This document shows positions 2,443 through 15,266 of a stretch of DNA of 64,000 nt, one piece after another. Under the pieces are notes generated by a model. It saw nothing but the letters and a program-made list of their open reading frames with translations, was not told where the DNA came from and did no database searches. This DNA is from Croceivirga sp. (GTDB lineage: Bacteria; Bacteroidota; Bacteroidia; Flavobacteriales; Flavobacteriaceae), in contig JANQKR010000043.1 of assembly GCA_028281025.1 (NCBI GenBank), positions 1-64,000 of the forward strand. The letters run 5' to 3'. Every line of letters begins with the position of its first letter. Within the stretch, counting starts at the first letter, position 1. The translations under genes were made by a program, and so were the position numbers.

Positions 2443-4668
2443 TTAAAATTGTTTCAAAAATGTCAATTTCACGATTCCTTGCGTGTTCTGAAATCTTATT
2501 GGGTTTAAAGAATCATCGAAACCGTCATTTTGGTTATTATTGAAAACGATAAACACATACGACAATGGAAGGTACTCCCATGATAAACGGGAATTGATTG
2601 TTGAACTATTGTTGCTGGTATTATATTGATAAAATGTAATCAGCTGCAACCTTGGATTCAATGACAGGCGAAGCTCAGTACCAAGCAGATTGGTCTCCGT
2701 CGAAGTCCCATCGATCCCCAGAGATTTTATTTTGTTGTATTCGTAGTTCGCGTTCAAACTAATATGTGGAATTGGAGCAAGACGCAAAGAAGCCACAAAG
2801 TTATTTAGGTTCCCGTCAAAGAATTCCCCGAAACCATAGGCCACGCTGAAACCGATTTTTTTTGAAAAGTCACCTGTATAACTAACAAGGTGACGCTGAT
2901 AGGAATAATCGCCGGCTTCAATCGCTATTCCCAAGGGTGAAAAGGGATCTCGCAATGATTGCCAATTCAAACGGTAGGCATATTCGATAAGGCTGCCATT
3001 TTGGAACTCAAAGCTAATGGGTCTTAGGGATGCGAAACCTTCCCTAAACGAAAGATCATCCAAATAATGGTAAAAGAAGGTTGTAATTCCGGGGCTGAAC
3101 TGTCGGGTGAACTTCGGTAACCATTTGGGTCGTAGGCGCAGTGACATTGCCGGACTGGTCAACAAATAATTATTGGCATCTATAAAACCTACCTTGGGGT
3201 CATAGTCTTCCGATATGACGCTTTCCACAAGCCCCAAATAAAGTAGGTTGTCGGAATAATACGCCCACAAAGCACCGGAATAACCCTCATTGTCTTCCAC
3301 CCCTGAGTTCTTTGAGCCCGAAAGCATCCAAAAAGCATTGATGGCCTGGGTGGGCCTCAAAAATCCGTCAATGGTAACGGTAGTGTTATAATTTGAAAGA
3401 CCCTGCGTATTGGCCTCGTCATATCGAAATGTGGCCATCCCGCCAATTCGGTTCTGGCCCCCGATATTCCTGGAATATCTGGCTACAGCAAAGTTTGCGG
3501 CCGGTTGGTCGTTCGATGCATCTTGCCGTAATACAATTGCCCCGATGTTCTGGTTTGGGCTCCTATTGGTAAACCTACCACCGACCTGTATGGGAATCGG
3601 GTTCCCGGTATTGTCCAAACCGATGCGCCGGCTGAAAAAAGGTTGCAGATTGTCCCAAGCGGCCATTCTGTAGATTTCGTTTCCTTCCAAAAAAAACTGT
3701 CTTCTCTCCGGAAACAAAACTGAAAATCGGGAAAGGTTGATGACTTGCCGGTCTACATCCGCTTGGGCGAAATCGGTATTATAGGTCAGGTCCAAAACTG
3801 AATTCGGACCCATCACCCATTTCACCTCGCCCCCAGCCTTGATATCCGTGCTTTCCTCTACAATCTCGTCCCCTTCCTTTTGCCTGACCGTATCAACCAA
3901 TAAGTAAGGGTTGAGCTGTATGTTTGCCGCTGGGGGTGGTGGCTCGATTCCTGTAAGAACCGCCTCATAGGGCATACGGTACACATTGAAATTCCTGGGC
4001 ACGGCGGGATAGGACACATATTCGTTGTTGACCCTAATGTTCCTTGTAAGGATGATACCCATTTCCCTACAGTTGTCCGGATACCGCAAGGTCTTCCAGG
4101 GTATGGCCATTTCCGTGTACCAACCCTCATCCGTAATCCGTGTTCTGACGCTCCACAACGCAGACCATTCCCTATTGAAAATCTCATCATCCATCACCAA
4201 AAGCTCCCGCTGTGCGCCGTAGGGATTGGTCTGGAATGAAACGGCGTTGCGCTTATCGAGGAATCCATCCAACACTACACCGAACATATCGTTCTGGAAA
4301 TAGTCAAAGTCCCTTTGCAGGTTTTGGGCCAGGATTTCCTTTCTGCCGTTTTCCGTCTTACAAAATGCCCCTATGTAAAGGTTTATCCCATCAAAAAGTA
4401 CCTTGGCTTCGGTATACCTAGTGGCTGGATTGCCTTGTATCGGGTCTTTTTGTACAAATTCCGTTATCGCTACCGCATTTTTCCAGCTGGGTTCGTCAAG
4501 TCTTCCATCAATATCGATTTCGCCGATGGCCCTCGTTGCCTGGACTACGGGTGACACTTCCGGGGGCGGAAAGATATCGGGGTTGTCCTGTGCCCAAGTT
4601 GCCGGTATTGAAAAAATCAGCAGTAATACGGAAAACAGCAATGTTTTTTCAAATCTTGTTCGAATCAT
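2443..4668 (-). CDS. DUF5916 outer-membrane protein with N-terminal CBM9-like domain
   Basis: This 741-residue protein begins with a Sec signal peptide ending near ATWAQ. A CBM9-like domain (about residues 45-245) carries IDGRLDEPSW, and the remainder is a DUF5916 region with many alternating aromatic strands, typical of a beta-barrel, ending in a terminal Phe (LKQF). The family is common in Bacteroidetes outer membranes; its substrate is not established. A close relative lies at 41706-43937, where a conserved Cys codon has become TGA; the equivalent Cys is intact here (GAFCKTEN). It lies downstream of and in the same direction as the ABC exporter operon with a 135-base gap, so co-transcription is possible. 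Confidence 0.85.
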   Translation of the reverse strand: MIRTRFEKTLLFSVLLLIFSIPATWAQDNPDIFPPPEVSPVVQATRAIGEIDIDGRLDEPSWKNAVAITEFVQKDPIQGNPATRYTEAKVLFDGINLYIGAFCKTENGRKEILAQNLQRDFDYFQNDMFGVVLDGFLDKRNAVSFQTNPYGAQRELLVMDDEIFNREWSALWSVRTRITDEGWYTEMAIPWKTLRYPDNCREMGIILTRNIRVNNEYVSYPAVPRNFNVYRMPYEAVLTGIEPPPPAANIQLNPYLLVDTVRQKEGDEIVEESTDIKAGGEVKWVMGPNSVLDLTYNTDFAQADVDRQVINLSRFSVLFPERRQFFLEGNEIYRMAAWDNLQPFFSRRIGLDNTGNPIPIQVGGRFTNRSPNQNIGAIVLRQDASNDQPAANFAVARYSRNIGGQNRIGGMATFRYDEANTQGLSNYNTTVTIDGFLRPTQAINAFWMLSGSKNSGVEDNEGYSGALWAYYSDNLLYLGLVESVISEDYDPKVGFIDANNYLLTSPAMSLRLRPKWLPKFTRQFSPGITTFFYHYLDDLSFREGFASLRPISFEFQNGSLIEYAYRLNWQSLRDPFSPLGIAIEAGDYSYQRHLVSYTGDFSKKIGFSVAYGFGEFFDGNLNNFVASLRLAPIPHISLNANYEYNKIKSLGIDGTSTETNLLGTELRLSLNPRLQLITFYQYNTSNNSSTINSRLSWEYLPLSYVFIVFNNNQNDGFDDSLNPIRFQNTQGIVKLTFLKQF

Positions 4669-10799: not shown

Positions 10800-11687
10800 T
10801 TATATTATTCGATCGACTTTATGCTCTGATCTATTGTGTTTCCAACGCTTATGGGTCCACAACCAGTATTGAGGAGCACTCAAAATATCTTCTTCCAATT
10901 GTTTTGTGAAACCCTTTGTAATTTCCCCTTCCTTTAATAAGCAATGGTCATCTGAAATAAGTGTAAATACCACCTTGTATCGCCCACGTGCCACTTTTAA
11001 GTTTGAGCCTGCAATAATGGGCATGTTAAATTCTCTTGCCATTCTCTCAGCACCATAAGCTACCGCCGTTTCTTGGTTCAAAAATGTGGTGAAGTGGGCT
11101 AATTGTGATTTTCTCGGCGATTGATCGCTTCCAAAAATCACCGCAAATTGCTCTTCTTTTTGTGTCCTCATTGTTTGAAGAACCGAATCAATAGTCAACA
11201 TATGCAGTCCATATTTGGAACGGCTTTCAGTAATCTTTTTATCCCAAAACTTGTTTTTTAAAGGCGAGTAAAGTGCCATGGGGGTATGTTTGATCTGTCC
11301 CGGAACGGCAAGCGCAAACAATTCCCAACTGTTGTAATGACCCCCTACCAAAATAACACTCTGTCCCTTGTTGAAATAGTGTTCCAACAATTCTGCGTTT
11401 ACTATTTTCATACGCTTCCTGGAGTCGACTTCGGAAATGGTGAAGTTTTTTATGCTCTCCACGATCAAGTCACCAAGATGCCGGTAAAAAGCCCTTTCAA
11501 TCTTAAGTATCTCGGCCAACGATTTTTCGGGAAAGGAACATGTCAGATTATTTCTTACAACGGTTCTTCTATACCGAATAATTCGGTAAACGATGTAGTA
11601 GAGCACATTGGAGATTCCATACAAAACAAAGAGCGGCAAACGCGATATCGGTACAACCAAGAAGTAATAGATAAGTTTGTCCATCAT
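10800..11687 (-). CDS. Lysophospholipid / lipid A acyltransferase (LpxL/HtrB-like)
   Basis: The 295-residue protein has an N-terminal membrane segment followed by the acyltransferase catalytic motif GGHYNSWE (H-x4-E form), a FGSDQSPRK segment and the late AERMAREFNMPIIAG stretch, all typical of the LpxL/HtrB family. It would transfer an acyl chain to lipid A or a related lipid at the inner membrane. The small secreted-protein gene just upstream ends 7 bases before the start, so they are probably co-transcribed. Being on an island, it may alter the envelope of the host cell rather than supply the basic lipid A pathway. Confidence 0.85.
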   Translation of the reverse strand: MMDKLIYYFLVVPISRLPLFVLYGISNVLYYIVYRIIRYRRTVVRNNLTCSFPEKSLAEILKIERAFYRHLGDLIVESIKNFTISEVDSRKRMKIVNAELLEHYFNKGQSVILVGGHYNSWELFALAVPGQIKHTPMALYSPLKNKFWDKKITESRSKYGLHMLTIDSVLQTMRTQKEEQFAVIFGSDQSPRKSQLAHFTTFLNQETAVAYGAERMAREFNMPIIAGSNLKVARGRYKVVFTLISDDHCLLKEGEITKGFTKQLEEDILSAPQYWLWTHKRWKHNRSEHKVDRII

Positions 11688-11694
11688 GGCCTGT

Positions 11695-12042
11695 TCATTC
11701 TTGACGACGTTGCTCTGGCAAAAGCTTTTGTAACCGTATTACAGTTGATATCCCTTCACTGCCAATGTCCCGAACCATAACGTTCTTGACATACGAAATC
11801 ATGAAATTTCCCCCAACATATTCATCCATGTGCAATGGATATTTTTCAAGTATGACCGATAGAATCTCATCAAAAACGACCATCTCCTCAATTCCCGATG
11901 CTGTTTTGCAGCAGAACGAATACCCACCCGCAACACGGCCCAAATAGATTCCTTCAACTTTGTTGATCTGCTGTGACCCCTGTGAAACCGAAATGGAAAA
12001 CGAGGTCAGAAATAATAAGGATAACGCAATCTGCTTAGGCAT
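11695..12042 (-). CDS. Small secreted protein of unknown function
   Basis: The start at 12042 is chosen because it gives a signal peptide (MPKQIALSLLFLTSFSISVSQ) and is preceded by AGGGAGAAG. The upstream frame to 12201 lacks protein-like character. The mature protein of about 94 residues has one CC pair and no recognised domain. It lies directly upstream of the acyltransferase gene. I do not recognise the family. Confidence 0.6.
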   Translation of the reverse strand: MPKQIALSLLFLTSFSISVSQGSQQINKVEGIYLGRVAGGYSFCCKTASGIEEMVVFDEILSVILEKYPLHMDEYVGGNFMISYVKNVMVRDIGSEGISTVIRLQKLLPEQRRQE

Positions 12043-12615
12043 CTTCTCCCTGGTTTTGCTTAAATATACTTGTTGAAAATAAGAGGGCTGAAAATAAATC
12101 GAGAATCTGTGAAGACTAAATAATCCCCGCTTTCTAAACTTAAACCTTGCGAACATACCACTAAATTTGGCAGCTTGCCCCAATACTATGTTAAATGTCA
12201 AGAGTGGCCATTTAAAGGATAAACCAAACTTGCATAAAATTCACATTAAAAATTGATTTTTAAATATTTAAACTTAGATACAACATGAATTGGAAACCAG
12301 CTGACCAAAAAATAAAAAGGATAAAAGATATGGGATCGGATTTAAATCCTTTCCTTTACAACAAATCACGGATTATGGACAATTATTGTTCCAATCCTTA
12401 AATAAAAAAGATAGCCCTCTCCTTTACCTGTTTACAATTCCCAAGGACCGCTTCTTCGTTATTTTCTGCTTGAACCAATATTTACGTTTCAAACGCCGTC
12501 CGGGCGCAGGCCCTAAGCATGGCTTTTCATTTGATATCCATTTACCAAGGGTACTTTGAAAACATGTCGCTTTTAAAATGGTACCGTCCATTATTAACTA
12601 TAAAAGAGAGAAGAT
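12043..12615. other. Divergent intergenic region before the bS21-NYN-sigma operon
   Basis: No gene is supported here. The region separates the minus-strand small secreted gene from the plus-strand rpsU paralogue and must hold both promoters. A GC-rich patch with CGCC-4-GGGCG occurs near 12494-12506. The candidate promoter of the plus-strand operon is listed separately. Confidence 0.45.
12530..12558 (+). promoter_or_regulatory. Candidate promoter of the bS21-NYN-sigma operon
   Basis: TTTG at 12530-12533 is followed after 18 bases by TACTTTG at 12552-12558, close to the Bacteroidetes consensus TTTG-N19-TAnnTTTG with one base missing from the -7 box. This would place transcription start near 12565, giving a leader of about 50 bases before the rpsU paralogue. 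This is a match by eye only. Confidence 0.35.
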
Positions 12616-12810
12616 ATGCTTATAATCAAAAGGGCTCCCGGTGAGAACATTGAGAGAGCTCTGAAAAGATATAAACTCAAGGTACGGAAGACCCAACAGT
12701 TAAAAAGTATTAGGAGCAAACAGGAGTTTACCAAAAAATCCAAGCGTAAAAGGGATAGGTTGGCAAAGGCTGTCTATCGAAACCAGTATTTGCAAAAACA
12801 GGAGGAGTGA
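12616..12810 (+). CDS. rpsU: Ribosomal protein bS21 paralogue
   Basis: The 64-residue, strongly basic protein has the family pattern: MLII start, GENIERALKRYK, a lysine/arginine-rich helix and the RLAKAVYRNQYLQ C-terminal helix. Full length matches normal bS21. In Flavobacterium ribosomes bS21 helps to hide the 16S anti-Shine-Dalgarno sequence, so a second version could change which messages are read. Many positions differ from the usual housekeeping form (for example KRAPGEN and QFTKKSKRKRD), and it sits inside an integrated island rather than a core operon, so it is probably an accessory copy; the chromosomal copy is not in this window. Its last codons (GAG GAG TGA) form part of a GGAGGAG ribosome-binding site for the next gene. 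Confidence 0.85.
   Translation: MLIIKRAPGENIERALKRYKLKVRKTQQLKSIRSKQEFTKKSKRKRDRLAKAVYRNQYLQKQEE
12801..12807 (+). promoter_or_regulatory. Strong Shine-Dalgarno site for the NYN gene
   Basis: GGAGGAG ends seven bases before the ATG at 12815 and lies within the last codons of the bS21 paralogue. Strong Shine-Dalgarno sequences are uncommon in Bacteroidetes. Its overlap with a bS21 gene suggests coupling, and possibly control by bS21-dependent masking of the anti-Shine-Dalgarno. The control step is inferred. Confidence 0.6.
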
Positions 12811-12814
12811 TTGT

Positions 12815-13549
12815 ATGGATAAAGACCTGAACCTTGCCGTTTTAATAGACGGTGACAATGTTCCCTCCAAATATGTCAAGGAAATGTTGGAGGAAATCGC
12901 CAAATATGGAAATCCGAGCATAAAGAGAATATACGGGGATTGGACAAAACCAAGTTTGGTGAAATGGAAGGATGTCCTCCTAAAAAATGCTATCACACCG
13001 ATTCAGCAGTACGGATACACCACTGGCAAGAACGCAACCGACAGTGCGATGATCATAGATGCGATGGACATACTGTATTCCGGTAAGGTAAATGGCTTCT
13101 CATTGGTCTCCAGTGACAGTGATTTTACACGATTGGCCATACGGTTGAGAGAGGCGGGCATGACCGTTTTTGGTATTGGGGAAAAAAAGACCCCTGACCC
13201 TTTTATCGTTTCTTGCGACAAGTTCATATACCTTGAGATCCTTCAAAAAAATGATGTAGGGGAATCCAGTACACGACGGAAAAATGATAAAGGTAAAGTT
13301 GATACCATCACCCCAAGGGTCATTGAACTTATCCTTTCCACTATCTCGGATGTGGAAGATGAGGAAGGTTGGGCATTTTTGGGCGAAGTGGGGACACTCG
13401 TACAAAAAAAGCAACCCAATTTTGACCCGAGGAACTACGGCTTTCGGAAACTGACGCCCTTGGTCAAATCCTTAGATCAAATTGAAATTATATCCAGAAA
13501 AAATCCGAAGGGAAGCGGAAATCTGATCTACGTTCGGACAAAGACATAA
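12815..13549 (+). CDS. NYN-domain putative RNase with C-terminal LOTUS/OST-HTH domain
   Basis: The 244-residue protein has an N-terminal NYN (PIN-like) nuclease fold, residues 1-150, with acidic residues in the expected places: D12/D14/N15 (IDGDN), D76 (NATDSAM) and D101/D103 (SSDSDF). A linker is followed by a LOTUS/OST-HTH domain (about 165-242), an RNA-binding winged helix. Bacterial proteins of this NYN-LOTUS layout are thought to cut or process RNA. It is translated from a strong ribosome-binding site inside the end of the bS21 gene, four bases downstream of its stop, and is followed after 17 bases by a sigma factor. Its placement suggests a role in RNA turnover linked to altered translation or transcription. 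Confidence 0.88.
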   Translation: MDKDLNLAVLIDGDNVPSKYVKEMLEEIAKYGNPSIKRIYGDWTKPSLVKWKDVLLKNAITPIQQYGYTTGKNATDSAMIIDAMDILYSGKVNGFSLVSSDSDFTRLAIRLREAGMTVFGIGEKKTPDPFIVSCDKFIYLEILQKNDVGESSTRRKNDKGKVDTITPRVIELILSTISDVEDEEGWAFLGEVGTLVQKKQPNFDPRNYGFRKLTPLVKSLDQIEIISRKNPKGSGNLIYVRTKT

Positions 13550-13566
13550 CCAAAATGTAAAAAATT

Positions 13567-14433
13567 ATGAAGCCACTTGCGATATCAAAGCAGATTACAA
13601 ATAGGGACAGTCCCTCCCTAACCAAATATCTTACTGATATCGGTCGTATTCCTATGGTAACGGTTGAAGAAGAGGTAGATTTGGCCGTTAGAATAAGACA
13701 GGGTGATAAAAAGGCTTTGGAAAGATTGGTGTCGGCCAACTTAAGGTTTGTGGTCTCGGTCGCAAAACAGTACCAGTTTAAGGGACTCAACCTACATGAC
13801 CTGATCAACGAAGGGAATCTTGGACTGGTTAGGGCGGCAACAAAATTTGATGAAACACGCGGTTTCAAATTCATCTCTTATGCGGTTTGGTGGATACGCC
13901 AGGGAATATTGCAGGCACTCGCAGAAAAATCCAGGATTGTCCGATTACCGTTGAATAAAATAGGCGCAATAAACAAAATAAAAAAAGTTTCTTCCCATCT
14001 GGAACAGGTACATCAAAGACCACCCACAGCTGAAGAAATTTCGGAATTGACTGATTGCCCTTTATCAGAGATACAATTTTGCCTAAAGCACTCATCTTGG
14101 CCTGTTTCAATGGACGAACCTTTAAAAATTGGTGATGGAGAATTGAATTTGAAAGATGTTATACGTTCGGACGATTCTAGCAACCCAGAAAAAAAACTTG
14201 TTAGGAGCTCCTTGGAATCTGAAATAGACACTTTGCTTTATAATCTATCCTCTAGGGAGTCCTATATAATTAAAATGTACTTTGGTATTGGGGTGAACTA
14301 TTGTTTAACGCTGGATGAAATAGGCACCAACTTGGATATTACCAAGGAAAGGGCAAGGCAGATTAAAGCAACTGCTCTGGAACGTTTAAGGCGCTCCACA
14401 TCTGGCAAAATCCTTAAGGAATATTTGCAATAG
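13567..14433 (+). CDS. Group 2 sigma-70 factor (RpoD paralogue)
   Basis: At 288 residues it contains sigma region 1.2 (SLTKYLTDIGRIPMVT), regions 2.1-2.4 (LRFVVSVAKQYQ, GLNLHDLINEGNLGL, FISYAVWWIRQGI), region 3 (PPTAEEISEL) and region 4 with a helix-turn-helix (LTLDEIGTNLDITKERARQI). Length and layout match the compact RpoD of Bacteroidetes. Region 2.4 is conserved, whereas the region 4.1 segment (SYIIKMYFGIGVNYCLTL) departs from the usual ERxVIxLRFG form, so promoter preference may differ in the -33 element. It is the third gene of the rpsU-NYN-sigma row. No Shine-Dalgarno precedes it, as is normal in this phylum. No anti-sigma gene is adjacent. Confidence 0.92.
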   Translation: MKPLAISKQITNRDSPSLTKYLTDIGRIPMVTVEEEVDLAVRIRQGDKKALERLVSANLRFVVSVAKQYQFKGLNLHDLINEGNLGLVRAATKFDETRGFKFISYAVWWIRQGILQALAEKSRIVRLPLNKIGAINKIKKVSSHLEQVHQRPPTAEEISELTDCPLSEIQFCLKHSSWPVSMDEPLKIGDGELNLKDVIRSDDSSNPEKKLVRSSLESEIDTLLYNLSSRESYIIKMYFGIGVNYCLTLDEIGTNLDITKERARQIKATALERLRRSTSGKILKEYLQ

Positions 14434-14625: not shown

Positions 14626-14817
14626 TTAGATGACCCTTACGTTTACCGCATTCAATCCTTTTTTTCCTTGCTCTAAATCAAACTCAACTTGATCACCTTC
14701 GCGAACTTCGTCAATTAATCCAGAAACATGTACAAAGTGCTCTTTGTCGGCACCCTCTTCATTGATAAAACCAAAACCTTTGGTGTCATTGAAGAACTTT
14801 ACTGTTCCTTTACTCAT
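14626..14817 (-). CDS. Cold-shock domain protein (CspA family)
   Basis: The 63-residue protein is a single cold-shock domain with GTVKFFNDTKGFGFI (RNP1) and EHFVHVSGL (RNP2). Such proteins bind single-stranded RNA or DNA and melt RNA structure. It faces the sigma operon from the opposite strand and is the last gene before the island's right-end att copies. With the bS21, NYN and sigma genes it completes a set of four gene-expression proteins, although a cold-shock gene could simply have been the chromosomal neighbour of an earlier insertion. Confidence 0.95.
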   Translation of the reverse strand: MSKGTVKFFNDTKGFGFINEEGADKEHFVHVSGLIDEVREGDQVEFDLEQGKKGLNAVNVRVI

Positions 14818-15095: not shown

Positions 15096-15110
15096 ACCCT
15101 CTTCCTCCGC
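15096..15110 (+). other. Second att-like copy of tRNA-Ser 3' end
   Basis: ACCCTCTTCCTCCGC matches 14 of 15 bases of the tRNA 3' end. It is followed by a hairpin (GCAAC-3-GTTGC) and the terminator at 15143. It may be the true right end of the resident island, or the scar of an earlier one. The downstream sequence 15105-15175 recurs at 63657-63728. Confidence 0.65.
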
Positions 15111-15142
15111 AATCAAGCGCAACTTTGTTGCAGCTTAAAAAG

Positions 15143-15175
15143 AAAATCCCGTCAAGTTTACTTGGATGGGATTTT
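15143..15175 (+). terminator. Terminator-like hairpin after the second att copy
   Basis: AAAATCCC (15143-15150) pairs with GGGATTTT (15168-15175) and CAAG with CTTG inside; TTTTGTCTTTT follows. The same architecture is seen at 63696-63728. It would have ended transcription of a tRNA gene whose 3' end was at 15110. Confidence 0.65.
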
Positions 15176-15249
15176 GTCTTTTAAGATGGTAATTCCAAAG
15201 GAATTAAAAGTTGCATTTGGAAAATGCTGTAAGAGGGATGTTGGAACAA

Positions 15250-15266
15250 AATCCCTCTTCCTCCGC
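15250..15266 (+). other. attR core: exact copy of tRNA-Ser 3' end
   Basis: An exact 17-base copy of positions 83-99, followed by a strong terminator at 15274-15298. This is what the undisturbed chromosome downstream of the tRNA would look like, so it is the best candidate for the outer right boundary. That makes the tRNA-borne island about 15.2 kb. Confidence 0.8.

Follow-up and report, generated by a model that had tools for sequence, protein, structure and literature searches.

A co-diverging gene row for a bS21 paralogue, an NYN-LOTUS protein and a SigA-like sigma factor in Flavobacteriaceae, with signs of mobility at tRNA genes

A paralogue of ribosomal protein bS21, an NYN-LOTUS protein and a SigA-like sigma factor are encoded side by side in a number of Flavobacteriaceae, and comparison of the gene copies establishes that the three diverge as one unit. 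This cassette looks mobile, judged by the tRNA genes, tRNA 3'-end repeats and integrase genes that accompany it at some loci. We put at about even the chances of our preferred reading, in which a mobile cassette, probably serving under cold or membrane stress, puts its own protein in the place of bS21 and draws RNA polymerase away.

The three genes, their recurrence and the core copies

The window, by which we mean the whole stretch of 64,000 nucleotides of Croceivirga sp. that was analysed, holds the three genes on the forward strand: rpsU2 for the bS21 paralogue (12616-12810), the gene of the NYN-LOTUS protein, which is of the GEVG type (12815-13549), and the gene of the SigA-like sigma factor (13567-14433). 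They are separated by 4 and 17 bases, and the open reading frames lie exactly as the first-pass annotation had them. The product of rpsU2 carries the Pfam domain Ribosomal_S21 (35.8 bits, cut-off 27), with TKKS instead of TKPS, and falls just under the NCBIfam S21 equivalog (28.4 vs 28.95). The sigma factor has sigma-70 regions 1.2, 2, 3 and 4 in Pfam and is far under the NCBIfam RpoD equivalogs (251 vs 555); both shortfalls are expected, as the two proteins are paralogues. The middle protein scores 132 bits for NYN and 64 bits for OST-HTH/LOTUS, both above the Pfam cut-offs, and is predicted to be an RNase with an RNA-binding domain; aligned NYN homologues keep Asp, taken to be catalytic, at its positions in LIDGDN, TDSAMIIDAMD and SDSDF. 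An AlphaFold model of the NYN structure was poor (pLDDT 39.5) and was set aside.

The order rpsU-NYN-sigma recurs in the kind of search across genomes that the first-pass annotation had proposed. It was found in 4 of 11 genomes of the same genus, in 5 of the 131 NYN-bearing genomes of a draw from the family (132 of 133 NYN places inspected, 15 of them with flanks of 1.5 kb only; the place left out, the second of G251, has E 3.8e-4 and contains a stop), and in at least 19 of the 119 stretches listed from a scan of named genomes, the majority of which are NYN genes without rpsU (the tile of L094 is without rpsU). Among the 139 loci of the family draw and the genus, rpsU is adjacent in 9/9 cases where the NYN gene is of the GE[VI]G type, a type that is not exclusive to the row, being present in Aquimarina (L135, L155) among the NYN genes of the scan that lack rpsU. 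Gene neighbourhoods vary between loci though the row, its order and its spacing stay. The distance matrices of the three genes in 23 copies are correlated at 0.85-0.95, which 0 of 2000 permutations matched and which indicates co-divergence; this test and the sigma tree leave out L029 (frameshift), L085 (cut) and L123 (sigma outside the row). Since the order recurs in the genus and in the scan, and all three genes are under purifying selection, with dN/dS about 0.05-0.13 between the window and G008, the row is not a product of chance. Its parts are nevertheless separable, and they are lost one by one at some loci: Robertkochia has the row without the sigma gene, the cassette NYN is missing from G204, G168 is without rpsU and the greater part of the NYN, and in G002 the sigma gene is frameshifted and bS21 shortened to 58 aa. 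Flagellimonas olearia has two copies of the cassette, which are not sisters and thereby speak for mobility.

That the bS21 and sigma genes are paralogues, as was claimed from the window, holds in the genome as a whole. The core rpsU lies on contig C35 between an acyl-CoA dehydrogenase gene and xerC-hpf, and there are two further SigA-like sigma factors, one of which (SigA, on C31) adjoins rpsO-pnp, and this supports an accessory status for the cassette copies and rules out that the row is the core rpsU/rpoD. These are thus not the only rpsU and rpoD of the genome, nor is the order common in the core, as the core copies lie elsewhere and the row stands between tRNA 3'-end repeats at five loci, that of the window included. 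In the sigma tree the cassette sigmas fall outside the clade of SigA and the second paralogues (99/95). The cassette sigma and bS21 diverge fast and the core copies are near-invariant; dN of the cassette sigma is several times that of SigA.

Surroundings and signs of mobility

The first-pass annotation had placed the row on a mobile island, and the borders of the unit in the window agree with this. A tRNA-Ser (TGA) gene is found at 14-99 on the forward strand, followed on the same strand by a tyrosine integrase gene (349-1587; PF13102, PF17293, PF00589; phrog_1 integrase). The 3'-terminal 17 nt of this gene for tRNA-Ser (83-99) form a left attachment-like repeat, of which a 17-nt copy, the right attachment-like site, lies at 15250-15266 (+) and a 14-nt copy at 15097-15110 (+), and 0 of 200 resampled sequences reach even 14 nt. 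A tRNA 3'-end repeat flanks the unit at five loci (the window, L193, L158, G204 and G168), and such a repeat at the far border is what they share with tRNA-targeted integrative elements. The integrase is inside the element in the window, G204 and G168, and the G168 island also carries a relaxase and a Toprim protein. At L193 the tRNA-bounded unit is only 2.4 kb and its contents are nearly all cassette; no integrase ORF was found in it.

Comparisons with control loci, all of which (tRNA, integrase, csp and desaturase) treat related loci as independent, and among whose cassette loci L028-L030 are longer than the controls, point the same way. A tRNA gene lies within 2.5 kb of the cassette at 7/30 loci, one of which (G261) came to light only when the stretch was extended, compared with 4/110 controls. 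As to the suggested association with integrases, integrase-like genes were found at 4/30 loci vs 0/110 controls, with three of the four integrase queries derived from cassette loci (L028, L338, L123). The repeat was not found or was weak at G131, G261, G009, L096 and L093, and there was no tRNA in the 40 kb examined at G176, G187, G255 and G008; G002 has the same tRNA-Ser, but its repeat is just 3.3 kb off and the cassette 17.7 kb off. The 8-kb tiles clip the flanks of several loci, so little weight can be put on a missing tRNA or csp there. Base composition does not set the row off (GC 0.37-0.47 over the first 24 kb).

The cassette was found on chromosomal contigs and was not seen in the viral contigs and phage records searched. 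A phage origin was rejected, as no exact match to the GE[VI]G motif pattern turned up in the viral contigs; neither of two viral NYN relatives has a match to bS21 or sigma in about 5 kb per side, and the phage records gave NYN and sigma relatives only, at <60% identity. A home on plasmids was likewise rejected: 369 plasmid records hold NYN relatives, and in a blastn search with the whole row coverage of 80% was reached by 0/104 plasmid records with a match, the best 10 of the 104 matching the NYN part only.

Genes for cold shock and lipids recur around the cassette. In the window a cold-shock protein gene (14626-14817, reverse strand; PF00313, 1.8e-18) is convergent with the sigma gene. A csp gene was seen within 2.5 kb at 12/31 loci vs 5/110 controls and not at the other 19, where some stretches are short; in G131, G176, G255, Robertkochia marina and Seonamhaeicola it is directly upstream on the same strand. 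A fatty-acid desaturase gene is near the cassette at 5/31 loci vs 0/110 controls, where both desaturase queries were drawn from cassette loci (G204, G168), and the L158 locus has a fatty-acid hydroxylase. A lipid A acyltransferase-like gene (10800-11687, reverse strand; PF03279, 6.8e-30) adjoins the cassette in G000, G002 and G008, and is also present in G004, which has no cassette. The small gene at 11695-12042 (reverse strand, start set by alignment with relatives), of about 115 aa and without a Pfam match, likely codes for a secreted protein; it is beside the cassette in four members of the genus, and on the G168 island.

Translation signals and the element upstream of rpsU2

The Shine-Dalgarno pairing of rpsU was calculated against an assumed 16S 3' end. 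Core rpsU pairs at -17.5 kcal/mol in 11/11 copies, and the cassette copies at a median of -1.4 (range -9.1 to +0.8 kcal/mol, n=23), with -6.6 kcal/mol for rpsU2 of the window. With an extended Shine-Dalgarno defined as pairing below -13 kcal/mol, the core copies have one and none of the 23 cassette copies does; by this calculation the signal through which bS21 is autoregulated is present on the core gene and missing from the paralogue, which is a strong hint that the cassette may redirect translation together with transcription. A Shine-Dalgarno-like GGAGG also stands ahead of the NYN gene (-8 kcal/mol or lower in 13/23 copies), yet it coincides with the codons of the terminal Glu-Glu of bS21 and may be there by chance.

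A conserved non-coding element of about 190 bp precedes rpsU in Muricauda-type loci (12305-12497, forward strand, in the window, from comparison of loci), and could possibly be a leader RNA, a promoter/operator or a recombination site. Known RNA families gave nothing above the gathering score, and RNAalifold found no structure; the model of the element was built without L065 and L159, and a 67-base remnant in G004 was also set aside. Thirteen base pairs picked by eye and by a covariation scan have 13 both-side changes vs 4.3 in shuffles, a hint only, since the pairs were picked on the very alignment tested. A regulon of the cassette sigma, sought with the promoter-like motif in the conserved 3' part, was rejected, as the motif gave no excess over a reversed-pattern control in six genomes.

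Known systems and possible functions

The operon rpsU-dnaG-rpoD of Proteobacteria, which the row was said to mimic, also has a bS21 gene first and a sigma-70 gene last, is compact and is co-directional, and that part of the comparison stands. The rest does not: the middle gene there codes for DnaG primase, to which NYN-LOTUS is unrelated, and the operon consists of core genes including the primary sigma, whereas the cassette has accessory paralogues, is island-borne where tested positive and is often near csp and desaturase genes. The likeness is superficial. With cold-shock operons the cassette shares the csp gene in or beside the unit at the 12 loci. In Sinorhizobium meliloti the cspA-rpsU cold-shock operon (O'Connell and Thomashow 2000, as cited in PMC3557214) likewise joins a cold-shock protein gene with a bS21 gene, and the cassette adds NYN-LOTUS, a sigma factor and integration at tRNA genes. 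The bS21 homologues of Francisella (PMC9578407) are also spare bS21 that could alter which mRNAs are translated, but the abstract names no sigma or RNase partner. Flavobacterium johnsoniae, according to PMC9976891, has an autoregulated rpsU, whereas the cassette rpsU is without the extended Shine-Dalgarno; both are bS21 genes of Bacteroidota, and Y54 is retained in 19/23 cassette copies. Phage bS21 and phage sigma factors (PMC9976891) resemble the cassette as mobile genomes that supply parts of the host expression machines, and differ in that the cassette lies on chromosomal contigs. Individual parts of the cassette are already known; the combination and its mobility at tRNA sites were not found in the literature searched, most subscription journals and preprints being outside its scope.

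In our preferred reading the cassette would be turned on by cold, membrane stress or the like, upon which the bS21 paralogue, translated without a Shine-Dalgarno, would occupy 30S subunits that are short of bS21. As core rpsU is best translated by bS21-less 30S subunits, it would be shut down once these were filled, and the ribosomes would shift to the island bS21; the cassette sigma would draw RNA polymerase to promoters of its own, and the NYN-LOTUS protein would trim or clear transcripts. Cold is favoured for the csp and desaturase genes that accompany the unit. It is favoured also because, according to PMC9976891, F. johnsoniae ribosomes replete with bS21 initiate on rpsU mRNA in a strongly temperature-dependent way, which would make a Shine-Dalgarno-independent source of bS21 most useful in the cold. 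Only tentatively do we go on to suggest that both machines are re-specified, the sigma making transcripts that ribosomes with the Shine-Dalgarno-independent bS21 favour, with core bS21 displaced through the autoregulation of its own gene and competing mRNAs cleared by NYN-LOTUS, as an imported programme run in the cold.

The same companions would fit a narrower cold-shock operon, in which a cold-induced RNA chaperone, bS21 and an RNase sustain translation and the sigma drives its own operon only. The csp genes directly upstream on the same strand and the precedent in Sinorhizobium (PMC3557214, citing the original report) speak for it, the 19 loci without a visible csp against it, and we consider it possible though doubtful. 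Rather unlikely, in our view, is that the cassette serves the island, boosting integrase and transfer genes in a phage-like manner with no gain for the host. The tRNA-bounded islands with integrase, the relaxase and Toprim protein in G168 and the fast divergence beside near-invariant core copies would suit this, as would the statement in PMC9976891 that bS21 is the ribosomal protein most frequent on phages, but the L193 unit has little besides the cassette to serve, a selfish element would not need csp and desaturase genes, and the viral contigs hold no exact match to the motif pattern.

If the three were instead loosely linked paralogues under relaxed selection, carried as passengers without a joint function, single losses and the high dN of the sigma would be expected; the low dN/dS, the correlated distances, and the order, spacing and upstream element kept across many species make this improbable. 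Least credible is an anti-phage or counter-takeover module, with a decoy bS21 and the NYN nuclease directed at phages that fit the ribosomes of Bacteroidota with a bS21 of phage origin. The island location, the predicted nuclease and a match of the sigma to PADLOC MzaA (1.4e-47) could be cited for it, but this match is only to the generic sigma-70 part (426-659 of 683; NCBIfam 230.8 vs 800 bits) and not to a full-length MzaA of the MZA system, neither bS21 nor NYN has a hit among the PADLOC models, and the recurring neighbours are cold-shock and lipid genes.

Specialised ribosomes are a long-open question, for which Bacteroidota offer a clean test, since bS21 governs how accessible the anti-Shine-Dalgarno is, with core rpsU as a natural readout. 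A mobile unit of a bS21 paralogue and a primary-type sigma is a ready genetic tool for testing joint exchange; if the proposal is true, the specificities of ribosome and RNA polymerase are exchangeable jointly by horizontal transfer. Should the cassette work as it looks, parts of both gene-expression machines would be swapped at once in marine flavobacteria.

The cassette genes and their core counterparts

As the first-pass annotation stated, the three forward-strand open reading frames of the window's cassette, a bS21 paralogue (rpsU2, 12616-12810), a NYN-LOTUS gene (12815-13549) and a SigA-like sigma factor gene (13567-14433), are separated by 4 and 17 bases. The first product is a bS21 protein by PF01165, scoring 35.8 bits where the cut-off is 27. 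NYN and OST-HTH/LOTUS domains make up the second, and the third, of 288 aa, is a sigma factor with regions 1.2, 2, 3 and 4 all present. A cold-shock protein gene (csp, 14626-14817) lies on the opposite strand, 3' of the sigma gene. The genome (5.1 Mb, 49 contigs, completeness 99.7%) has a second, core rpsU on contig C35, 52% identical and flanked by what we take to be acyl-CoA dehydrogenase and xerC-hpf genes, and two other SigA-like sigma genes, with identities of 59 and 58%, of which one follows what we take to be rpsO-pnp. The likeness to the rpsU-dnaG-rpoD operon that had been proposed is superficial. A second SigA-like sigma apart from the cassette, 69-83% identical to SigA, is present in 11 of the 12 genomes searched (L004, L204, L206, L209, L211-L215, L217, L226); the sigma of G019 is more distant (55%).

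In the phylogenetic tree SigA and this second paralogue form a clade with good support (99/95) that excludes the cassette sigmas. Sixteen of the latter, found in Muricauda-group genomes and in the window's genus, group together (100/100), and the cassette sigmas may have one origin or several. Pairwise distances of the three cassette proteins correlate at 0.85, 0.87 and 0.945 (23 copies; 0 of 2000 permutations), which demonstrates co-inheritance but not contact, since shared ancestry alone would give the same result. Between the window and G008, dN/dS is about 0.13 for rpsU, 0.05 for NYN and 0.10 for sigma.

Distribution and mobility

Four of the 11 genus genomes carry the row (the window's genome, G002, G008 and G009). 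It has probably been lost from G004, because the adjoining acyltransferase and small gene are kept there along with only 67 bases of the conserved element otherwise found 5' of rpsU2. In G002, a single-contig genome, the cassette bS21 stops at 58 aa and the sigma is in two frames, split at an A run (L029:9890-11705), which may be a real lesion, slippage or sequencing error.

Of 299 genomes drawn evenly from the family, 131 have NYN-LOTUS, at 133 places, and inspection of 132 of these gave the complete row in five genomes (the window's, G261, G131, G176 and G187). Partial or rearranged versions were csp-rpsU-NYN without sigma (G255), element-rpsU-sigma-csp (G204), element, NYN remnant and intact sigma (G168), and NYN followed by rpsU (G019); the other inspected places had no bS21 or sigma gene within the stretch taken. 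The NYN-LOTUS gene found 5' of the element in G204 is a different one, with 56% identity (L333:2450-3208), and rpsU there runs straight to sigma.

The NYN proteins of the row carry GE[VI]G where other aligned family members mostly have GDVG, and among 139 loci all nine NYN genes of this type adjoin rpsU. The motif is not exclusive: scanning named genomes with it returned at least 119 stretches, 118 of those listed encoding a NYN relative, and most NYN genes among the matches listed have no rpsU beside them. These come chiefly from other phyla and families, but two are Aquimarina loci (L135, L155). All three genes are in order in at least 19 of the 119 stretches listed, with the sigma cut at the tile end in one; nearly all of these matches are from Muricauda, Flagellimonas and Allomuricauda, and the rest are from Croceivirga and Seonamhaeicola. 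Among the matches listed, the arrangement csp-rpsU-NYN occurs in Robertkochia marina and Winogradskyella tangerina. Muricauda sp. NBRC 101325 and Flagellimonas olearia have two cassette copies each, non-sister in the latter.

The annotated mobile island is supported by tRNA 3'-end repeats and an integrase gene (349-1587) around the window's cassette. Of tRNA-Ser (14-99), the 3'-terminal 17 nt are found again at 15250-15266 and the 3'-terminal 14 nt at 15097-15110, enclosing cassette and csp; repeats of at least 14 nt arose in 0 of 200 Markov-resampled sequences. At four other loci the cassette is bracketed by such repeats of other tRNAs: L193 by tRNA-Phe (14-15 nt; a 2.4-kb unit with element, rpsU, NYN, sigma and little besides), L158 by tRNA-Arg (17-22 nt, four copies), G204 by tRNA-Lys (24 nt, integrase adjoining the tRNA) and G168 by tRNA-Asp (43 nt, together with an integrase, a relaxase of the MobA/VirD2 type and a Toprim protein). 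A tRNA gene lies within 2.5 kb of 7/30 cassette loci versus 4/110 control loci with a solitary NYN (Fisher p 0.002), an approximate value as related loci are treated as independent and tile lengths differ. Integrase-like genes were found at 4/30 versus 0/110 (p 0.002), which is approximate for the same reasons, with three of the four queries taken from loci later counted and the window's integrase the first-listed match in three of the four. Three loci (G131, G261, L096) have a nearby tRNA and no end-anchored repeat was found there; L093 has internal matches only (11-14 nt), and G009 a distant repeat of 11 nt. In G002 the same tRNA-Ser as in the window has a repeat 3.3 kb off, which leaves the cassette, at a distance of 17.7 kb, outside the bracketed stretch. 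G176, G187, G255 and G008 have no tRNA gene in the 40 kb taken.

Neighbourhoods differ between the 24 loci compared (ORFs of at least 70 aa); apart from the cassette genes, all that recurs near at least three of them is a cluster of generic AraC type, an antisense ORF that is spurious, and a pair of genes shared within the window's genus. Later targeted searches added csp and a desaturase. At the island borders of two loci whose tRNAs differ (window 15097-15266; L158:376-553 and 4071-4254), copies of the tRNA 3' end delimit units of roughly 155-165 bp, which may be minimal mobile units. A large block (15492-48929), with what we take to be TRAP transporter, sulfatase-like, SusC/D-like and beta-galactosidase-like genes, separates the border of the window's island from an ABC permease gene; in G002 the same permease gene comes about 4 kb after the cassette.

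The upstream element

The element (window 12305-12497, about 190 bp) is kept in Muricauda-type loci having sequence there. A profile made from 14 copies picks up seven others outside its build set (L159, L170, L188, L193, L197, G204 at 4.6e-17 and G168 at 6e-23) and detects the G004 remnant; above 35 bits it has no match outside cassettes among the loci examined, and none 5' of csp-first cassettes. Candidate roles for the element are leader RNA, promoter/operator and recombination site. RNAalifold gave no structure and no Rfam family fits; hand-picked helices show some compensation. The 3' part of the element has TATTTTTTG, which compared with the flavobacterial SigA box, TAnnTTTG, is longer by one base. 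In F. psychrophilum a box shorter by one base accompanies an alternative sigma motif (excerpt of PMC9723704), so the cassette sigma might conceivably recognise a promoter here; no further copies of the promoter-like motif stand out in six genomes.

bS21 autoregulation, cold and a possible function

In F. johnsoniae, bS21 aids anti-SD sequestration, and rpsU has an extended Shine-Dalgarno (SD) and is preferentially translated by bS21-less ribosomes (excerpts of PMC9976891). With an assumed 16S end, core rpsU has this extended SD in 11/11 genus genomes (-17.5 kcal/mol), and the 23 cassette copies pair at -9.1 to +0.8 kcal/mol (median -1.4; window -6.6). The 16S 3' end GGATCACCTCCTTT has no match in six genomes (G000, G002, G008, G261, G176, G187); as three of them are listed as single contigs, rRNA genes may be masked in the collection searched. 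Y54 of the cassette bS21 is kept in 19/23 copies and His in four, and P41 is Lys in 22/23. A third bS21 type, directly 5' of what is presumably proC in G007, G009 and G010 (L055:1495-1692, L056:1471-1668, L057:1471-1668), likewise has no extended SD, and at the TKPS position a Pro is retained.

Genes for csp are scarce (2 to 5 matches per genome, nine genomes), and one lies within 2.5 kb of the cassette at 12/31 loci, the window's among them, versus 5/110 controls (p 5e-6). A fatty-acid desaturase (PF00487) is found at 5/31 versus 0/110 (p 4e-4), where one of the five positives, G204, supplied a query. L158 carries a fatty-acid hydroxylase, and three genus members a lipid A acyltransferase-like gene. 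Judged by their families, csp and desaturase suggest adaptation to cold or membrane stress, and the cargo favours the link with cold. In G168 (L357:804-1364), G131 (L062:4884-5441) and Muricauda sp. NBRC 101325 (L090:2200-2715) the cassette has a distinctive regulator of the AraC type nearby (69-70% identical).

The Sinorhizobium cspA-rpsU cold-shock operon, as cited in an excerpt of PMC3557214, is a partial precedent for a cassette with csp. Alternative bS21 homologues in Francisella ribosomes, which alter the proteome (excerpt of PMC9578407), are one for a spare bS21, and phage-encoded bS21 is discussed in part of PMC9976891. No report of bS21, NYN-LOTUS and sigma combined was found among the matches listed in the literature searched, a scope outside which lie most subscription journals and preprints.

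Should it be taken up into 30S subunits, the cassette bS21 would be outside the core feedback, because its gene is without the extended SD, and could silence the core gene. The activation energy of rpsU initiation is 42.9 kcal/mol on wild-type ribosomes versus 18.3 without the bS21 C-terminus (excerpt of PMC9976891), from which the core feedback is expected to be at its slowest at low temperature, and the cassette may exploit this. The best reading of the cassette is that it functions as an expression switch, a proposal that we think has an even chance of being right.
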